From an uncultured Verrucomicrobiales bacterium (lineage in GTDB: Bacteria > Verrucomicrobiota > Verrucomicrobiia > Verrucomicrobiales > DEV007): a DNA stretch of 41,872 nt. A model generated the notes under the pieces. The model was not told the origin of the DNA, made no database searches, and worked only from the letters and a program-made list of their open reading frames with translations. Below are positions 5,798-41,691 of the stretch, piece by piece. Positions within the stretch are counted from its first letter, which is position 1; each line of letters opens with the position of its first letter. The stretch is from assembly GCA_937891465.1 (NCBI GenBank), contig CALAHF010000086.1:1-41872 (forward strand). The letters are read 5' to 3'. The position numbers were made by a program, and so were the translations under genes.

Positions 5798-5843
5798 ACG
5801 ATCGAACAGGGGGTAGTTCAGTGAACAGGCCCTGTTTGATCGT
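5798..5843. repeat. 45-bp palindrome family, copy 1 (between rpmH and rnpA)
   Basis: The left arm ACGATCGAACAGGG pairs with the right arm CCCTGTTTGATCGT with one mismatch, around a loop containing TAGTTCAGTGAAC. It is 46 bp. It lies inside the rpmH-rnpA transcript, where its RNA hairpin could attenuate read-through and help explain different L34 and RnpA levels (inference). Confidence 0.85.
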
Positions 5844-7877: not shown

Positions 7878-7922
7878 ACGATCCAATAGGGTATACTCGT
7901 CGAACGGATCCTGTTGGATCGT
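7878..7922. repeat. 45-bp palindrome family, copy 2 (abuts bioD start)
   Basis: The left arm ACGATCCAATAGGGT and the right arm ATCCTGTTGGATCGT enclose a CTCGTCGAAC loop. The right arm ends 8 bases before the bioD ATG, so the element takes the place of a normal ribosome-binding region; the spacer is only GTAGAAAAAA-like A-rich sequence. Confidence 0.88.
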
Positions 7923-12501: not shown

Positions 12502-12538
12502 ACGATCCGATAGGGTTGGTTGAATGAATCAACCCTAT
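12502..12538. repeat. 45-bp palindrome family, copy 3, left piece cut by the IS
   Basis: The piece begins ACGATCCGATAGGGTTG and breaks off after CAACCCTAT. The remaining 8 bases (TGGATCGT) are at 13797-13804 on the other side of the insertion sequence. Joined, the two give exactly 45 bp with 17-bp arms and one mismatch. Confidence 0.85.
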
Positions 12539-13792
12539 CAGTGCAGAGAACTAGGTTTGGGACGATTTTGCTGCCCAAATTCAGCTTCGATTTGCCTGTT
12601 TGAGATGGGTCAGGTAGCGGCCAGCTCCAGATTCGCCATGCGAATCAGATTGAATGTTGCGCCGGTAAAATACGCCTCACTCTGAACTTTACTTTCCCCT
12701 CGATAACGAGTCTTTCAAAAGATGCCCACAGTTTTCATCCAACCGAAGATCTCCTCGATCCGCTTGCGGATGCGCTGGCTGGTTTCGTAGCCTCGTGAAC
12801 TTGTGGTATGGCCATCCAACCCGGGCGTCGTTCGGTTTTTCACCTCTGCAACATGTGGTTTGGTTCGCCGTTTCCGGCAACCGCTCACGAACGCTTTGGT
12901 GTGATACCCCTTGTCCGCCCCGAGCGTTTCAACGCGCCCATGTCTGCGACTTTCGATCCGCTCGATTTGCTCTAAAGCCATCGCGGGCTCCTGTGTGGTG
13001 ACTGGATTGTAAACGGCGATTTCGCTGAGCAATCCGTTGCGATTTTCCATCACCCCGTGCAGACCAAAACACATTTTAGCCTCTTTGTAGGGGCCTTTTC
13101 GATACAGCACCGACTCCGGATCCGTCCGGCTCCGGTGCGTTTTATTGCTGCGCTTTTCCCCTTTGAAATCCACATCGGGATTGCTCGGTTTAAACCCGTT
13201 GCTGTCACAGCCGTCGGTATCTCGATCATTGTCATCGCCGTCGAGATCTTCATCTTTGGGACGAAAGCTTTTCACGCTTGCCCACGCCTCGATCAACGTG
13301 CCATCGGCGCTGAAGTGTTCATCACTGGCCCAGTTTTCCTCACGCGAGAGTTGGTAAACTTCCGCGAAAAAAGCTGCGGCGATTGGCTCAGCAAAAAGGC
13401 GATCATAATTTTTGCTAAAGGTGCTGTGATTGAAGGTTCCCTCCTCCAGATCGCGATCAAGGAACCACTGCCACATCAGATTGTAGGCGAGTTGTTCGGC
13501 GAAAAGCCGTTCGCTCCGGACTGAGAAAAGCGCCATCAAAATCTTGGCTTTAAACAACTGCTCTGGCGGGATGCTGGGGCGTCCGGTTGTTTGGCTGTAA
13601 AACGCCTCGAACCTGGAACTGAACCGACGCAACACCTCATCGACCCGTCGCTTGATTGCCCGAATCGGATGCCGCTTCGGGATCAAGCTCTCTAAATTAC
13701 AAATCGTCAGAAACTCAGGTTGGCCGTTGCTCTTTCCTCGCATCTCACATTTTATCCATGAAAAACGCCTTGGCTACTTTTTCAACACCCTG
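12539..13792 (-). mobile_element. IS5-type insertion sequence inserted in a palindromic repeat
   Basis: The 1254-bp element carries one transposase gene. The boundaries come from the target: CTAT occurs at 12535-12538 and again at 13793-13796, and removing the element plus one CTAT regenerates a perfect-length copy of the local 45-bp palindrome. A 4-bp duplication of YTA-type is known for the IS5 subgroup. The right end reads CTACTTTTTCAACACCCTG, a typical IS5-like end; the left end CAGTGCAGAGAACTAGG matches it only weakly beyond the terminal CAG, so the inverted repeats are degenerate. With the transposase nonsense mutation, the copy is probably immobile by itself. Confidence 0.8.
12610..13743 (-). 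pseudogene. IS5-family DDE transposase with in-frame TGA
   Basis: The frame from ATG 13743 encodes an N-terminal DUF772-type domain (LFKAKILMALFSVRSERLF, then AYNLMWQWFLDRDLEEGTF) and a DDE catalytic domain. First Asp is in FSADGTLIEAWAS, second in TLGADKGYHTKAF, Glu in RKRIEEIFGWMKTVG. A TGA at 12717-12715 ends translation after residue 342. The same frame continues with KTRYRGESKVQSEAYF and NLIRMANLELAAT to a TGA at 12612-12610, the normal end of such transposases (377 codons). The lesion looks like a CGA-to-TGA change at the Arg before KTRYRG. An acidic low-complexity insert (DEDLDGDDNDRDTDGCD) sits between the first two catalytic residues. Confidence 0.88.
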
Positions 13793-19129: not shown

Positions 19130-19960
19130 TTAAAACTCACCCGCAAAAAACGGATTGTGGCGTTTTTCTTCCCCAACCGTCGTCATCGGGCCGTGACCAG
19201 GACACAAAATAGTTTCATCCGGCAGCGTCATGATTTTTTCGCGATTCGTTTTCCACGCGTCGTCCCATGAAACAAGTCCCCCGCCCATTGATCCGGCGAA
19301 CATGGCATCGCCAACAACCGCGACCGGCTCGGCGAGACCGGAAATTACATACGTCGTTCCGCCGGGGGAGTGACCCCATGTGGTTCGCGTTTCGACTTTC
19401 AAATTGCCAATCGAAAATTCAGCGCCTTCATCAAAAGGTTCTGTTCCCGGCCATGGCTCGGTGCTGTTACAATATTTGCGGACATTAGAATCGAGCGCTG
19501 CATCAAGCCGCTGCAAATCCGCGACGTGATCGTTGTGCGTGTGCGTTAGAAAAATCGACTCGATCGTCAGCCCAAGCTGCTTTGCCCGTTCAACCATCGG
19601 TAGTGAATTCGTGCCCGTATCAAAAATCGCCGCGACCTTGGTTTCCGGATCCCAAATCAGAAACGAGTTCACCCGCATGTCGCGGTAGGCGGCGTTGAAA
19701 ATCTCCAACCCATCCAGCGAAACCATTCGTGGAGCCCATGCTTTTGAAGCCGCAATAGTCAGGGCATCGACATCCAGATCGAGCGCTCGTGCGACTTTTT
19801 TCAACGCATCTGCATCGCAGAATTCACCTCGGCACAGTCGAGCCAACACGTCAGTCGGGACTCCGGTTTTCGCTGAAAGCTCAGCTTCCGTGATTCTGTG
19901 ACCGCGCATCATTTTTGTAATGATGTCGTCAAAAAAATCTTCGATAGGAATAATCATCAT
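19130..19960 (-). CDS. HTH domain fused to metallo-beta-lactamase-fold hydrolase
   Basis: Residues about 20-68 form an XRE-like helix-turn-helix (ITEAELSAKTGVPTDVLARL, then ADALKKVARALDLDVDAL). Residues about 78-276 are a glyoxalase II-like MBL domain with the metal-binding HTHNDH (140-145), TTWGHSPGGT, VVGDAMFAG and LCPGHGPMTT. The metal site is complete, so hydrolase activity is likely, perhaps on a thioester such as S-lactoylglutathione. An HTH on such an enzyme is uncommon and could mean autoregulation or a protein-binding role. Its ATG overlaps the stop of the MobA-FdhD gene (ATGA), so the two are coupled. Confidence 0.88.
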   Translation of the reverse strand: MMIIPIEDFFDDIITKMMRGHRITEAELSAKTGVPTDVLARLCRGEFCDADALKKVARALDLDVDALTIAASKAWAPRMVSLDGLEIFNAAYRDMRVNSFLIWDPETKVAAIFDTGTNSLPMVERAKQLGLTIESIFLTHTHNDHVADLQRLDAALDSNVRKYCNSTEPWPGTEPFDEGAEFSIGNLKVETRTTWGHSPGGTTYVISGLAEPVAVVGDAMFAGSMGGGLVSWDDAWKTNREKIMTLPDETILCPGHGPMTTVGEEKRHNPFFAGEF

Positions 19961-21360
19961 GGCTCAGACTTCTGCACCCGAAATGCATTCGCGTAAACAT
20001 TGAAACTTCGCTCCCGCAAAAAGCCGATGAGGGTCTGGCCGCTCTCTTTGGCGACTTCAACTGCCAAACTGCTTGGCGCTGAAATACCTGCCACGATGGG
20101 AATTCCAGCGGCGAGGGCTTTCTGCATCAGCTCGAATGAAATTCGACCACTGACGAGTAAAATTGAATTGGAAAGTGGAATTTTGCCGTCGAGAACGGCG
20201 CGACCAATCACCTTGTCGAGCGCGTTGTGACGGCCGACATCTTCGCGAAGCCACTGCAGATTTCCCTCGCGGTCAAAAATCGCACTGGCGTGCAATCCAC
20301 CGGTTCGGTCGAACGTTTCCTGAGCGGCACGCAATGTTCCTGAAAGCGAAAGCAGCACCTTTTCAGAAACAACTCCGCCGGTTTCAGCCGGAATTGAATC
20401 GTATTGCTGAAAAATGGAATCGATCGTGGCTTTCCCGCAGACGCCACAACTGCTCGATGTAAAAACGTGTCGGGTAAGCGATTCCAAATCAACGGAATGG
20501 CCCGGTGCCAATTTTGCCTGAATCGTATTCCCAATCCCTTCGGGATCGACATCAGGGCAGGCTGAAATTTCGAAAATCTCGTCGCCGGATTTAATCACGC
20601 TCTCCGTCAGCAGGAATCCCGCGGTCAATTCGTCGTCATGCCCGGGCGTCCGCATCATCACGGCAATGCTGCGGTCTTCGATTCGGATTTCGAGCGGTTC
20701 TTCAGCAGCAACAAAATCTTCGACTGCAGCAAATCCTTTTCCGGCTTTAAAACGATCCAATAGGGTTGGTTTGTCGAATAGACCCTGTTGGATCGTGGCG
20801 AGGTCTTCCGGCCGATTCAAATTCGCAAACAAAGCTCGATCTGCTTCCGATTCGATTTCCAGCGCTTCCAGACCGGCTTTCGCGATTAATTTCTGAAGCG
20901 AGAGTTCACCCGCTGCGATTTGTTCGCGAACGAGCTGCAGGATTGATTTTGGATAAACCGCAGCCAGCGGTTCGAAACGCCCATCGATTCGAGGAACGAT
21001 GCCTTTTCCTGTGTCGACGAGTTGTTTCAGAAAATCGGGGGAAAGATTCGGTAAATCGACAGCGAGAACGACGAGGAAATCCGTTTCGCATTGTTCTAAA
21101 CACGCAGCCAAACCGCCGATGGGACCGAGATTGCCATCTAGATCATGGACGATAGAAATCCCCTCTATGAAATCGGGGAACGGCTGATTTTGATTCGCCG
21201 AGAGATAAATTTGCTCCGGCTCAAGCTGCGCCAATTTCGCCAACTGAAACGCAAACAGCGGCTGCCCGCGCCATTGGTAAAAGGCCTTGTCCTCGCCAAA
21301 ACGGGAGGATTCCCCGCCGGCGATGAGAGCGGCGGACAGGCTATTTTTTTCAGAAGACAT
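19957..21360 (-). CDS. MobA-FdhD fusion: Moco guanylyltransferase plus sulfurtransferase
   Basis: Residues 1-188 are MobA, which attaches GMP to molybdopterin: LIAGGESSRFGEDKAF nucleotide loop, VVLAVDLPNLSP metal-binding Asp, RFEPLAAVYP, and the usual MobA end LFANLNRPEDLA. Residues about 210-467 are FdhD, which passes sulfur from IscS to the cofactor of formate dehydrogenase: EEPLEIRI, TPGHDDELTAGFLL, SSSCGVCGKATID with the sulfur-carrying Cys pair, GGLHASAIF, REDVGRHNALDKVIG and SGRISFELMQKA. The linker 189-203 (TIQQGLFDKPTLLDR) is encoded exactly by a 45-bp palindromic repeat. A fused protein would couple the last two maturation steps of bis-MGD enzymes. No formate dehydrogenase gene is in the window. 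Confidence 0.93.
   Translation of the reverse strand: MSSEKNSLSAALIAGGESSRFGEDKAFYQWRGQPLFAFQLAKLAQLEPEQIYLSANQNQPFPDFIEGISIVHDLDGNLGPIGGLAACLEQCETDFLVVLAVDLPNLSPDFLKQLVDTGKGIVPRIDGRFEPLAAVYPKSILQLVREQIAAGELSLQKLIAKAGLEALEIESEADRALFANLNRPEDLATIQQGLFDKPTLLDRFKAGKGFAAVEDFVAAEEPLEIRIEDRSIAVMMRTPGHDDELTAGFLLTESVIKSGDEIFEISACPDVDPEGIGNTIQAKLAPGHSVDLESLTRHVFTSSSCGVCGKATIDSIFQQYDSIPAETGGVVSEKVLLSLSGTLRAAQETFDRTGGLHASAIFDREGNLQWLREDVGRHNALDKVIGRAVLDGKIPLSNSILLVSGRISFELMQKALAAGIPIVAGISAPSSLAVEVAKESGQTLIGFLRERSFNVYANAFRVQKSEP
20752..20796. repeat. 45-bp palindrome family, copy 6, in frame within mobA-fdhD
   Basis: The left arm ACGATCCAATAGGGT and the right arm ACCCTGTTGGATCGT (one mismatch) enclose TGGTTTGTCGAATAG. 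Being 45 bp it adds exactly 15 codons. On the coding (minus) strand it has no stop because the TAG of other copies reads CAG. It lies precisely between the two enzyme domains. Confidence 0.9.
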
Positions 21361-26224: not shown

Positions 26225-26269
26225 ACGAACCAACAGGGTTGATTCATCGAACGTACCCTATTGGTTCGT
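26225..26269. repeat. 45-bp palindrome family, copy 7
   Basis: Left arm ACGAACCAACAGGGT, right arm ACCCTATTGGTTCGT (one mismatch), loop GATTCATCGAACGT. It begins 12 bases after the kdsD stop. Confidence 0.9.
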
Positions 26270-26278
26270 GAAGCCATT

Positions 26279-26323
26279 TCGATCAGACAGGGTAAGTTCG
26301 ACGAACAGACCCTATTGGTTCGA
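26279..26323. repeat. 45-bp palindrome family, copy 8
   Basis: Tandem with copy 7, 9 bases apart, same orientation pattern. The right arm ACCCTATTGGTTCGA is good, the left arm TCGATCAGACAGGGT is diverged. It ends 15 bases before the coaB ATG. Confidence 0.8.
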
Positions 26324-26974: not shown

Positions 26975-28168
26975 TCACAATTTGATCTTCTCAGCGATCG
27001 TTTTTCCAATATTCAAAGCCGCCGTCGCCGCAGGACTGGGAGCGTTGCAGACGTTGATGATGCGCTGGTGCTCGACGATCAAAAAGTCATCGACCATTTG
27101 CCCGTCCGGTGAAATTGCCTGAGCGCGAACACCGGCTGGGACGGCCACAAGATCGTCTTCGTGAATCTCCGGCAACAGCCGCGCGAGCGCCTTCACAAAG
27201 GCAGGTTTGCTGATCGAACGCCACATTTCGCCCGCACCGGTTTTCCAATATTTTGCGGCGATTTTGATAAAGCCCGGATAGGTCAGTGATTCAAACAGCT
27301 CGCCGACGTTAATCTTGTATTTTTCGTAGCCTTCCCGCGCGAAAGCCAACACCGCGTTTGGCCCGCATTCGATGCCGCCCTCGATCATTCGCGTGAAATG
27401 GACGCCTAGAAAAGGAAATGCCGGATCGGGAACGGGATAAATCAGGTGATTCACGAGCGATTGTGCCTCGGATTTCAATTCGAAATATTCGCCCCGAAAC
27501 GGCACGATTTTAACATTCGGATCTCGCCCCGAAAGCCGTGCGAGTCTATCCGAATACAACCCGCCGCAATTCACCACATGGCGTCCCACGAATGTGTTGC
27601 GTGCTGTATCGACCGCGACCTCTGTTGGAAAAAGGGTGATGTCTTCGACTTTCTCATCGAGCAGGATCTTCCCGCCCATCGCCGCGATTTGTTCGCCCAA
27701 ACGTTCGCACACCTGGCGGTAATTCACGATTCCGGCCTCAGGAACATGAATTGCTGCAATCCCCGCTGCGTGGGGCTCGATCTCCCGAAGTCGTTCTTGA
27801 TCAATAAGGGTGCAGTCCACCCCATTGGCCTGCCCACGTTCAAAAATCTGATTCATCGCTGGAATTTCAGAATCGTTTAGGGCAACGATTACCTTTCCAC
27901 AAATTTCGAAATCAATTCCTTCGGCCGCGCAAAACTCCTCCATCGCCCGTTTTCCTTTGCGGCAATTATCGGCCTTCAACGATCCCGGTTTGTAATAAAT
28001 CCCTGAATGCAGAACGCCTGAGTTATGGCCGGTTTGATGTTGGGCCAGCACTGATTCTTTTTCGAGGACCGTGACTGAGCAATCAGGGTTTTGCAGCAGA
28101 ACGTTGTAGGCTGTTGAAAGCCCCACGATACCGCCACCAATGATAAGAATGTCGGAATGGCCGCTCAT
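26975..28168 (-). CDS. lhgO: L-2-hydroxyglutarate oxidase/dehydrogenase (LhgO)
   Basis: This FAD enzyme oxidises L-2-hydroxyglutarate to 2-oxoglutarate and feeds electrons to oxygen or quinone. The N-terminus carries the dinucleotide motif [15 protein letters not shown] and the family block [66 protein letters not shown] and the closing [32 protein letters not shown] also match. Length 397 is usual. The ATG overlaps the tilS stop by 4 bases, so it is translated with tilS. Confidence 0.93.
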
Positions 28169-29157
28169 TTTTCGAGAAAAATTCGACCCGCTCGACGGCG
28201 GGCATGCACATCAGCCGGGAGATTGATTTTCGCTGGGTCACCCGATTCGGACAACAAATCGAGGACTCGCTGAATTTCAGAAAATCCGCAGTCGGGAACT
28301 CCGCTTTCTGACAACCAACGGGCAACGATTCGAAACTGATCGGCCTCGGCCATTTCGGCGAGTTTTTTCGAATCGAGAGCACCGTTGTCATCAATCAGAT
28401 CGGCAAACACCGAGTCGATTTGCGATTCGCGGACGGCTTCTTCCATTTTTAAAACTCGCGACAGGCGTTCGACCGCGCCGCGAATATCGCGCCCGAAGAT
28501 GTCTGCGAGATCGGGGATCAGCTGCTGACGAACCCGATTTCGCACCGCAAATTCAGGATCAAAATTCGACCGATCCTCCCGAAACGGAATCGAATTTTCT
28601 GAGCAATAAAGATCAATCGCTTCACCCCAGACTTCCAGCAGGGGACGATTAAAAATCAGGTCGCGGGCACCGTGTCGAAATTCACTGGATCGCCGCATTC
28701 CGCCTAAACCGCGAAGCCCGCTTCCGCGAAAGAAATTCATCAGGACGGTTTCCACCTGATCATCGGCGTGGTGAGCCAGAAAAATGCCGGTGCAATCGTG
28801 TTTCAACGCCATTTCAGCGAAGAAATCATGCCGCACCTGCCGCGCCGCGAGTTCGAGCGATTGTTTCGTTTCCGCCGCGTATTTGGCAACATCTGCCGTT
28901 TTTGATTCGCATTTAAACTCAAGTTCAGCAGCAACTTTTGCCACCAAATCGGCATCTGCTTCTGACTCGCTGCCGCGCAAACCATGATTCACATGACATA
29001 CGACCAAATTCTCGAAACCAGCTAATTTCAGCAAATGCAGCAGCACCATCGAATCCCGGCCGCCGCTCACGCCGATCAGGGCAGGCGTTTCCGGAGAAAA
29101 CTCAGCAGAAAGCTGGTAGAGAAATGTCGAATCGAGACTGACACGAGGTTTGGGCAT
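28165..29157 (-). CDS. tilS: tRNA(Ile)-lysidine synthetase
   Basis: TilS attaches lysine to C34 of the CAU-anticodon tRNA-Ile so it reads AUA. The ATP-pyrophosphatase loop is SGGRDS (residues 31-36), followed by [52 protein letters not shown] and NRPLLEV. At 330 residues the protein has the catalytic and middle domains but lacks the full C-terminal domain of E. coli TilS (about 430 residues), as in other short TilS. It overlaps lhgO by 4 bases. A degenerate palindrome copy lies just upstream. Confidence 0.94.
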
Positions 29158-29163
29158 TCATTT

Positions 29164-29208
29164 ACAAATCAACAGGGTCTGTTCATCGAATCAACCCTCC
29201 TGAGTAAC
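29164..29208. repeat. 45-bp palindrome family, copy 9 (degenerate right arm)
   Basis: The left arm ACAAATCAACAGGGT and the TTCATCGAATCAACCCT core match; the right end CCTGAGTAACA is decayed. It starts 7 bases upstream of the tilS ATG. Confidence 0.7.
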
Positions 29209-35655: not shown

Positions 35656-35700
35656 ACGAATCAATAGGGTTCATTCGCCGAACAGACCCTATTGGTTCGA
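35656..35700. repeat. 45-bp palindrome family, copy 10
   Basis: Left arm ACGAATCAATAGGGT, right arm ACCCTATTGGTTCGA, loop TCATTCGCCGAACAG. It begins 7 bases after the metallopeptidase stop. Confidence 0.88.
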
Positions 35701-35709
35701 AAAACCTCT

Positions 35710-35753
35710 ACGATCCAACCCTGTTGGCTCGTAGATAGACCCTGTTGAATCGT
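35710..35753. repeat. 45-bp palindrome family, copy 11 (rearranged left arm)
   Basis: ACGATCCAACCCTGTTGGCTCGT is followed by AGATAGACCCTGTTGAATCGT. The right half is standard; the left half itself looks like a short hairpin of the same letters, as if two right arms had recombined. Tandem with copy 10, 9 bases apart, ahead of algI. Confidence 0.75.
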
Positions 35754-35814
35754 GAAATCGCCTCTTGCATCGTGAGCGGTCTCGCGACAGGATTCGCCTC
35801 ACTTTTTTACTGCC

Positions 35815-37914: not shown

Positions 37915-39783
37915 ATGAGTGAACAGAAAATGGAAAACCCCTACGACAAATTTGGCGCGCATCCCTGCAAGGTGACTGCGGGCCGGGTGTCGTTGTGGAT
38001 TTTCTCGATTCTGTTTTTGTTGGGAATTTCAATTCCGCCGATTCTGCGAAACGTAAACGACGCGAAAAAAACGGAAAGCCGTTGGGTGCCGGTGCTCGAA
38101 TTCTGGAATTTTCCTAATGCAAAAGACGACGATGCCCTGGCAGCGAAAAAGAAGAAGAGCAGCAAAATTAAACGAACGGAGCCAAGTTTGCGGGATCACT
38201 TGGGAGCGGTTGAAAATGAAATCAAAGCGGCTGGTTTTTGCAAAAGTATCGCGAAGAATGATCAGAAAATCATCACGTCGGTTTTTAATGAAGGAAATTT
38301 GAAGGTCACAGTTGGTCGTGACGGATGGTATTTTTATCAGCCGGGAATCGACGGGTTGGCTGGATATGGTCCGCTAAAAGCTGAGCCTGATAGCGTGACG
38401 AAAGATCCTGATCGCCCAGAGTGGTTCGCTCAGCTGCCGGTGATTGAGAAATTCACAAAGCAGCTGAGAGAACGTGGCATCGAACTGATGCTTGTCCCGG
38501 TTCCGGTGAAACCGATGATTCATCCTGAGTTTTTGAGCGAGGGAATCAAAGCTCCGTTGCGCCATAGGGATCAGGAGGCGCTTTATGAAAAGCTTCGGGG
38601 AATGGGAATTGATCTGGTGGATCTGACCGATGACTTGATGATGTGGAAGGCCGATTTAAACGAAGGCGAAGCACTTTATTTGAAACAGGACACCCATTGG
38701 ACTCACGACACGATGGAACGAGTTGCAGCAGTTGTGGCCGAGCGAGTGAAAGCAAAATCCTGGTATGGCGATGTCGCGAAAAATCTCGAAGTGAAAACGG
38801 AGTCGGTAAAACGAGAATGGGTGGGGGATATGGTCAACATGCTGACCGAGGATTCACCGGGCGAAAATTATTCTGCGGAAACCCAAAAGATAGTCCGCGT
38901 GCTCGATTCGAAAACTGGCGCCCCACCAGCCTCAGATTTGGGGTCACCAATTGCTTTGTTGGGAGATTCCTTCGTGAACGTTTTCGACACCCCGAGCATT
39001 GGTTTCGGGAAAGACGGAGAAACAGCGATCGGGGCCGGATTTGCCGCAACGCTGGCGAAATTACTCGGAACGCATCTCCAAGTCCACACAGCTAATGGCG
39101 GTGGTGCGACAGACGTGCGGAAGGCGTTTGCGGGGAGCGGAAAGAACGTCGTGGAAAACAAAAAACTCGTGATATGGACGATTGCTTCTCGCGATTTGTT
39201 GTTGTCTGAAACGCCGGGGAATAAAGCCGGGGTGATGTGGCGTGATGCTCAGTTTTCAAAGCGGGACGTCGCTATTCCAGAAAATCCGGTAGATGAAAAT
39301 GCCCCTAAACTGGAGCCGACGTTGATTTTAACCGGAAAGCTGAAAGAGCGTTCATCACTCGATGATCCCAAGCAAACGCCTTATGCGGAATCGCTGTATT
39401 CGGCGCTCTTTGATGTCGTGAAAGTTGAGAAAGGTAAATACGCTGAATCCGAAGCGATGGTTTTTCTCTGGGGATTTAAGGATCGAAAATTCATTGCTGA
39501 AACTAAACTTCAAGTCGGTGACGAAGTTCGCCTCGAACTCGTTCCGTTGCCTGCAGTTACCACGGTGAAAGGCATTAACAAAGCGGATGATCTTTTTGCT
39601 GATCTTCCTCAGTTTTTTGCGCTGAAGCCCGGGCTGAAAGAAGAAACAAAACCTGCGACTAAAGTTATTGGACCATTGAAAATACCATGCGGTTTCATTT
39701 TCTTCGTAATTGGTATCGTCGCTTACGTGATCATCGGTCTGACAATTCAATTTCGCCAACGACGCGCGGCGCCGGTCGCATAA
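37915..39783 (+). CDS. AlgJ/AlgX-like SGNH O-acetyltransferase
   Basis: The periplasmic partner of AlgI, which attaches the acetyl group to the polysaccharide. N-terminal helix about 24-44, then an AlgX-type SGNH domain: GRDGWYFYQPGIDGLAGYG, IELMLVPVPVKPMIHPEFL, DTHW (259-262, catalytic Asp/His pair), and LLGDSFVNVF (Ser352 nucleophile). HTANGGGATDVRKAF and VIWTIASRDL follow. The C-terminal ~150 residues form an extra domain and a second membrane helix (IPCGFIFFVIGIVAYVIIGL) with a basic end. With 622 residues it is longer than AlgJ (about 390); the added domain and second anchor are unusual. The catalytic triad is complete. Confidence 0.85.
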   Translation: MSEQKMENPYDKFGAHPCKVTAGRVSLWIFSILFLLGISIPPILRNVNDAKKTESRWVPVLEFWNFPNAKDDDALAAKKKKSSKIKRTEPSLRDHLGAVENEIKAAGFCKSIAKNDQKIITSVFNEGNLKVTVGRDGWYFYQPGIDGLAGYGPLKAEPDSVTKDPDRPEWFAQLPVIEKFTKQLRERGIELMLVPVPVKPMIHPEFLSEGIKAPLRHRDQEALYEKLRGMGIDLVDLTDDLMMWKADLNEGEALYLKQDTHWTHDTMERVAAVVAERVKAKSWYGDVAKNLEVKTESVKREWVGDMVNMLTEDSPGENYSAETQKIVRVLDSKTGAPPASDLGSPIALLGDSFVNVFDTPSIGFGKDGETAIGAGFAATLAKLLGTHLQVHTANGGGATDVRKAFAGSGKNVVENKKLVIWTIASRDLLLSETPGNKAGVMWRDAQFSKRDVAIPENPVDENAPKLEPTLILTGKLKERSSLDDPKQTPYAESLYSALFDVVKVEKGKYAESEAMVFLWGFKDRKFIAETKLQVGDEVRLELVPLPAVTTVKGINKADDLFADLPQFFALKPGLKEETKPATKVIGPLKIPCGFIFFVIGIVAYVIIGLTIQFRQRRAAPVA

Positions 39784-39807: not shown

Positions 39808-40029
39808 GTCATCCTGAGAAGGAGGCACGACGCCGAAGGAGCCCGTTCGGAGTAAAAATTTTCCCAAGTTGAGAACGCCAACATCGCCGGACAGCCTGCA
39901 GTGGCTCCGGTCTGGAGCATCGGGCCGTTCCATCCGCTGACTTAGGGAATCGGGAAGATGGTTTTATTTTCCGAAAATCACTGATTCCGGCAGGGATCCT
40001 TCGTTGTCGTGCCTCCGCCTCAGGATGAC
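39808..40029. mobile_element. MITE-like element with 37-bp inverted repeats
   Basis: The left end (39808-39844, GTCATCCTGAG ... CGAAGGA-CCC) and the reverse complement of the right end (39993-40029) agree at 32 of 37 positions. The blocks GTCATCCTGAG, GGAGGCACGAC and CGAAGGA are identical. The ~148-base interior holds no ORF and contains a small hairpin (CCGGA ... TCCGG near 39888-39910). It lies in the 389-base gap between the convergent algJ-like and pgk genes. GTCATCCTGAG...GAAGGAT-type repeats occur in many bacterial genomes; an origin as a transposon end remnant is inference. Confidence 0.65.
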
Positions 40030-41381: not shown

Positions 41382-41691
41382 AATCAATCGTATTCGGCGG
41401 ACGATACTAATTGCGTGCGATTCCGCAACTTGGGATGTGGGTGGCGACGATTTTTCGGAATCGCATCGTCGAATCTCAATGCGTAACCCTTCGCGCCTGA
41501 CCTGCTTGGTGTCGAAATGCAGGAGGATTTTAAAGGGTAAAATTTCAATTTTGAATTGTTAATTGAAACGAGGGAACACGAAATCGCCCATGAATTGTAA
41601 ATCGTTTGAATCACGGAAGCTGTCTGGTCCTACGGTTTAGAAATTTAAACTTCTAAATTTGCCCTTTAAAATCTCCCGGTATTCCTTGCCG
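41382..41691. other. Intergenic region upstream of pgk
   Basis: No complete gene is visible. The stretch contains two AT-rich inverted repeats: TTTCAATT/AATTGAAA around 41546-41571 and TTTAGAA/TTCTAAA at 41635-41657. They may be operator-like or transcript hairpins, but nothing assigns a regulator. A promoter for pgk should lie in the first 100 bases; I could not fix its boxes. Confidence 0.35.

Follow-up and report, generated by a model that had tools for sequence, protein, structure and literature searches.

A 45-bp symmetric element at the MobA-FdhD junction: probably an inherited copy of a clade-specific family in native codons of an older fusion

Rickettsia palindromic elements (RPEs) are palindromic repeats that lie in frame inside protein genes, where they are read in the same frame and give a recurrent peptide, and in R. 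conorii nearly half of the RPE copies are inside genes (PMC10969869). A CGTC tag is present at one end of RPEs, and GTAG (REP) repeats have been reported from the verrucomicrobium O. terrae (PMC3733652). The cyanobacterial HIP1 is a symmetric DNA word that occurs in many copies and is linked to DNA-recognising enzymes (PMC4390886). Searches of open-access full texts gave no account of the element family described here. The window analysed is an entire contig (C86) of 41,872 nucleotides, which belongs to genome G000, a 5.97-Mb assembly of 229 contigs. Its nearest relative is the genus mate G001. The locus consists of the following features.

19957..21360, minus strand: mobA-fdhD fusion gene, 467 aa, MobA-like guanylyltransferase and FdhD sulfurtransferase, from the open reading frame and domain/profile matches
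20752..20796, no strand assigned: two-fold symmetric element of 45 bp, in phase with mobA-fdhD; minus strand ACGATCCAACAGGGTCTATTCGACAAACCAACCCTATTGGATCGT, peptide TIQQGLFDKPTLLDR, residues 189-203
20779..21336, minus strand: profile match to the MobA model NF001457, residues 9-194, reaching 6 residues into the element
19972..20760, minus strand: profile match to the FdhD model NF001943, residues 201-463, starting within the element

The element has 15-nt arms with one mismatch. Its first base, at 20796, lies 188 whole codons past the start of mobA-fdhD and opens residue 189. The coordinates, symmetry, frame and peptide given by an earlier sequence-only reading of this DNA were all right when the sequence was re-examined, and the observation itself is confirmed. 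That reading also let the element begin after the end of MobA, which was not borne out. The Pfam domains PF12804 (MobA-like nucleotidyltransferase) and PF02634 (FdhD) were matched at residues 11-160 and 218-462 of the reading frame. NF001457 was aligned to residue 194 (profile position 197 of 200) and NF001943 from residue 201 (profile position 10 of 274), so both models overlap the element. The gap between the two matches is six residues, with twelve model positions still unaccounted for. In the predicted structure of the fused protein (mean pLDDT 83), a helix at residues 186-191 and a strand at 196-205 suggest that the element residues are shared by the two domains. According to this model, the element would form the end of the last MobA helix, a short loop and the first FdhD strand; the local pLDDT is modest, 57 for residues 191-200 and 82 for residues 201-210.

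The sequence is one of many in this genome. The 30 fixed positions of the element were matched 346 times in G000 at ≤3 mismatches and the reversed pattern 0 times, which excludes chance. Even at ≤7 mismatches, the reversed control gave 0 matches in 0.81 Mb. Within the window, the following copies were found (no strand assigned).

5798..5843: diverged intergenic copy
7878..7922: intergenic copy
12502..12546: copy with one half degraded
26225..26269: intergenic copy
26279..26323: second copy of the pair with 26225..26269, start-to-start 54 bp
29164..29208: copy with one half degraded, just upstream of gene 28165-29157 (minus strand)
35656..35700: intergenic copy; a second, rearranged copy comes next, at about 35710-35754

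The core of the element, CAACAGGGT-N15-ACCCTGTTG, was detected at ≤2 mismatches in 39 of the 40 genomes of three genera (g1, g2 and g12). At the same threshold there were two matches in g13 and none in the remaining 14 genera of the family. At ≤1 mismatch, the core was present in one of 165 genomes from other families of the order. In these searches, the repeat family was hardly met outside g1, g2 and g12, three genera of a single Verrucomicrobiales family. The copy number per genome ranges from 0 to 818, and the density in g1 is some 60-160 copies per Mb. An in-frame TAG had been taken for a general feature of the other copies, with CAG at the junction as the exception. The T of this triplet occurs in 45% of the G000 half-sites and in 4% of those of the sister species, and CAG is the commoner form.

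According to the sequence-only reading, an insertion of the element either removed a stop between adjacent mobA and fdhD genes and thereby made the fusion, or was tolerated in the linker of the fused protein as 15 extra codons. The fusion in one open reading frame is common across the family and the order. It is also found where copies are absent or nearly so, namely in g7 (G007, G021 and G028), G010, G013, G039 and G054. In a tree of the fused protein, with the junction excluded from the alignment and the root placed at the midpoint, the 32 rows from g12, g1 and g2 group in a single clade (support 97/92), and the element-poor fusions fall outside it. The window protein has a distance of 40 residues between the MobA motif NxN and the FdhD motif EEP; nearly all proteins of g1, g2 and g12 have 39-41, also where the junction is not element-like, e.g., IDPHRTDEGVNLRRY and EMARGAFDEAAPIRR. 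In element-free or nearly element-free fusions this distance is 43-59, with one exception (G054, 30). The fusion thus predates the repeat and did not grow longer with it, so the repeat is not the origin of the fusion, and fusion by insertion is refuted. A tolerated 15-codon insertion, as it had been put, is not supported, since the junction has 39-41 residues in the clade whether element-like or not; the comparison of relatives' linkers yielded the same fusion with an unrelated linker of equal length, an outcome which the reading had itself named as telling against it. Length neutrality would still be compatible with an insertion that was balanced by a deletion. In relatives from g15 and g17, mobA and fdhD lie in one frame with a single stop codon between them; one codon is thus all that separates the split and fused states there.

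Junction DNA resembling the element was found in all four g12 genomes, in both g1 genomes and in several of g2 (G080, G002, G086 and, partly, G085). This distribution is most simply explained if the common ancestor of g1, g2 and g12 already had such a junction, which then decayed in most of g2; the element-like junction would be as old as that ancestor. Most g2 genomes have lost the junction element with no obvious harm. Within g2, the similarity of the junction to the element was not correlated with copy number (rho -0.17).

A mobile element like the Rickettsia palindromes would also give such a junction, if it inserted 45 bp in frame long ago, a similar number of junction residues was lost before or after, and the peptide was tolerated at the inter-domain boundary. 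This scenario is in agreement with the hundreds of dispersed copies, their variable number among genomes and the 54-bp-spaced pairs, which suggest spreading units. At least one other gene also speaks for it. A HEAT-repeat protein (G000 C97:27053) bears an in-frame copy, PNEQGLFGERTLLVQ, in the same reading frame as in mobA-fdhD. The copy is common to its orthologues in G001 (PKQQGLFDERTLLTR) and G012 (PNQQGRLSDRNLLHR), and these proteins have about 19-24 residues more than the outgroups; this copy is a real in-frame insertion. The comparison with Rickettsia elements drawn earlier is therefore partly right: copies of the family do get into reading frames, as in the HEAT-repeat protein, and at mobA-fdhD added length is not in evidence. 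We consider a mobile insertion at the junction rather improbable, because the junction is no longer than in element-free fusions, both domain profiles run into the element from either side, and its residues form the MobA helix end and the first FdhD strand in the predicted structure. Moreover, single copies are not flanked by target-site duplications, direct repeats of 2-10 nt beside 67 of them being no commoner than in shuffled sequences. A search with PF01797 for an intact REP transposase (RAYT) gene found none: the sole match in G000 is interrupted by a stop and has no element close by, and G001 gave one weak match. A RAYT-driven REP was rejected on these grounds.

Among other candidate coding copies, one in glpD (C80:140528) was rejected as an insertion: its residues are native, the length is unchanged and only one arm is good (ACCCTGTTGGATCGT). 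This single arm is common to genera, as it is found in G000 and G012. The in-gene copies C80:42895 and C80:127641 lie near called starts and were set aside as probable miscalls, and several of the 11 in-gene copies of the placement sample described below probably have this origin. A diverged copy at G000 C163:113552 appears to encode the hydrophobic stretch of an N-terminus that resembles a signal peptide, MKFSRKLLKTIQPFLFIVLTLLVRE, and another at G000 C17:99564 comes after a twin-arginine-like start. Near-identical cores reading QQGNDVDETLF or QQGYPDERTLL recur in g2 (G026, G059, G066, G069 and others) and may be further conserved coding copies.

The junction copy is conserved as DNA. Between G000 and G012, 13 of its 15 third codon positions are identical, compared with 35% in the remainder of the gene (p 6e-5); between G000 and G001 it is 12 of 15, compared with 47% (p 0.01). 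In the case of G080, the dispersed copies form a divergent subfamily, and the junction, CAACAGGGTACAGTGTCGGACTGTACCCTGTTA, matches that subfamily and shares its inner motif. This junction scored 16.1 bits under the half-site profile of G080 (the median of G080 copies is 15.9), and the junctions of other genomes scored from -4.8 to -21.9 bits. These scores suggest that the G080 junction either received its sequence from the family or changed together with whatever recognises the copies. The junction could also be the birthplace of the family, if a chance near-palindrome in ancestral junction codons had been copied out and amplified. The element-like junction and the dispersed family are almost alike in distribution, and the junction is read through in one and the same frame in all bearers, both in favor of such an origin. 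In G013, two weak core matches already go with a junction that is not element-like, a combination that would speak against it. We regard a birthplace as very unlikely, since the coding copy in the HEAT-repeat protein is of similar age, which leaves the junction without priority, and the G080 junction, in following its local family, is easier to understand as a recipient than as a source.

The placement of copies was determined in 0.81 Mb of G000 at ≤5 mismatches, with genes called by a custom script. There were 91 copies: 70 intergenic, 10 partly overlapping and 11 within called genes, with about 87% of the sequence being coding. The intergenic copies are distributed over tandem, convergent and divergent gaps roughly in proportion to the available space, with 15 of the 70 in divergent gaps. 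More copies are closer to a gene's 3′ end than to its 5′ end (54 of 80, p 0.002), at a median distance of 15 nt. Close pairs are exactly 54 bp apart in 16 of 18 cases (e.g., 26225-26323 in the window and G000 C80:11329, C80:42895 and C17:13180), and in many of them the spacer is a similar, roughly symmetric 9 bp, such as AAAGCCGTT or AAAGGCATT. At four intergenic sites compared between G000 and G001, three copies were in place and one was not; two of the three kept copies sit in intergenic DNA that otherwise fails to align. Around mobA-fdhD, synteny with G001 extends over too short a stretch to take in the other copies of the window.

The long complementary arms and the bias toward 3′ ends leave room for a role in RNA, in which a hairpin (a REP-like mRNA stabiliser or a terminator) is selected for its fold and the mobA-fdhD copy affects the mRNA where the two domains meet. 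The variation among copies makes this improbable. In G000, G001 and G080, variation at the degenerate positions in one half of a copy is independent of that in the other half, and no compensatory change between the arms was observed. Perfect pairing near the centre is avoided: at position 17, the symmetric state occurs in 11% of G000 copies against 29% expected (z -3.8) and in 5% of G001 copies against 34% expected (z -4.9). The copies in divergent intergenic regions also do not fit an RNA role, nor does the absence of GTAG and CGTC tags as a feature, GTAG being present in 8 of 91 copies and CGTC in the end regions of 5 of 91. Independent halves and an avoided symmetric centre are easier to reconcile with a double-stranded DNA site of a dimeric protein than with an RNA hairpin. 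Because bacteria do not maintain long perfect palindromes stably, some avoidance of them would be expected anyway. Neutral decay of the copies of one palindrome would also give independent half-sites; the uneven conservation profile argues against it.

We therefore favor, as the probable explanation, that the 45 bp at the junction were inherited vertically, as one copy of a symmetric element specific to the clade and a putative dimer site, and lie in native codons of an older MobA-FdhD fusion. This explanation takes as established the family identity of the element, its age, its length neutrality, its overlap with two domains and its excess conservation as DNA. The copies are candidate double-stranded DNA sites in which a dimeric protein would read each half-site separately. 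The element would have been present at the junction already in the common ancestor of g1, g2 and g12; as no codons were gained, its sequence took the place of existing junction codons or formed inside them. It would since have been kept by continuing recognition or by periodic conversion from other copies and translated as an ordinary part of the enzyme. More tentatively, the family may be a set of chromosome-wide putative dimer sites of one clade, partly in 54-bp pairs, that are kept even inside folded domains. The recognition sequence would then shift between genomes with the coding copies following it, so that DNA binding would dictate amino acids of the junction. The tempting story in which a repeat makes a fusion is thus corrected, and its replacement is testable: a repeat within a folded enzyme that is conserved as DNA and follows the repeat family of its own genome. 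If the sites have a binding protein, the clade would be a natural experiment on the joint evolution of site specificity and protein sequence. If the copies spread instead, this would be an RPE-like coding repeat outside Rickettsiales.

Among the described systems, RPEs share with the element the in-frame palindrome, which has the same frame in mobA-fdhD and in the HEAT-repeat protein, with a true insertion in the latter only. The element differs from them in length (45 bp compared with about 150 bp), in its host (Verrucomicrobiota, not Rickettsia), in being mostly intergenic (11 of 91 inside called genes), in the length-neutral junction copy, in the absence of the CGTC tag and in half-sites that vary independently. 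REP/RAYT systems likewise consist of short palindromes that number in the hundreds, lie mostly between genes near 3′ ends and are often paired, but the element has no GTAG tag, no intact cognate RAYT and no covariation of its arms. It differs from MITEs by the lack of target-site duplication. Because these tested defining features fail, we do not claim membership in RPE, REP or MITE. The element resembles DNA sites of dimeric proteins in its two-fold symmetry and independently varying half-sites (G000, G001 and G080). It is also like HIP1 in being a symmetric DNA word in many copies; HIP1 is an octamer, GCGATCGC, whereas the element is 45 bp long, intergenic and often in 54-bp pairs.

Inverted repeats of another kind were noted near the end of the window. 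A 222-bp MITE-like unit at 39808-40029 has 44-nt inverted ends, GTCATCCTGAG...CTCAGGATGAC, which are 82% complementary, and adjoins a gene ending at 39783. A second long inverted repeat, at 41516-41683, is AT-rich, with 47-nt arms that are 74% complementary.
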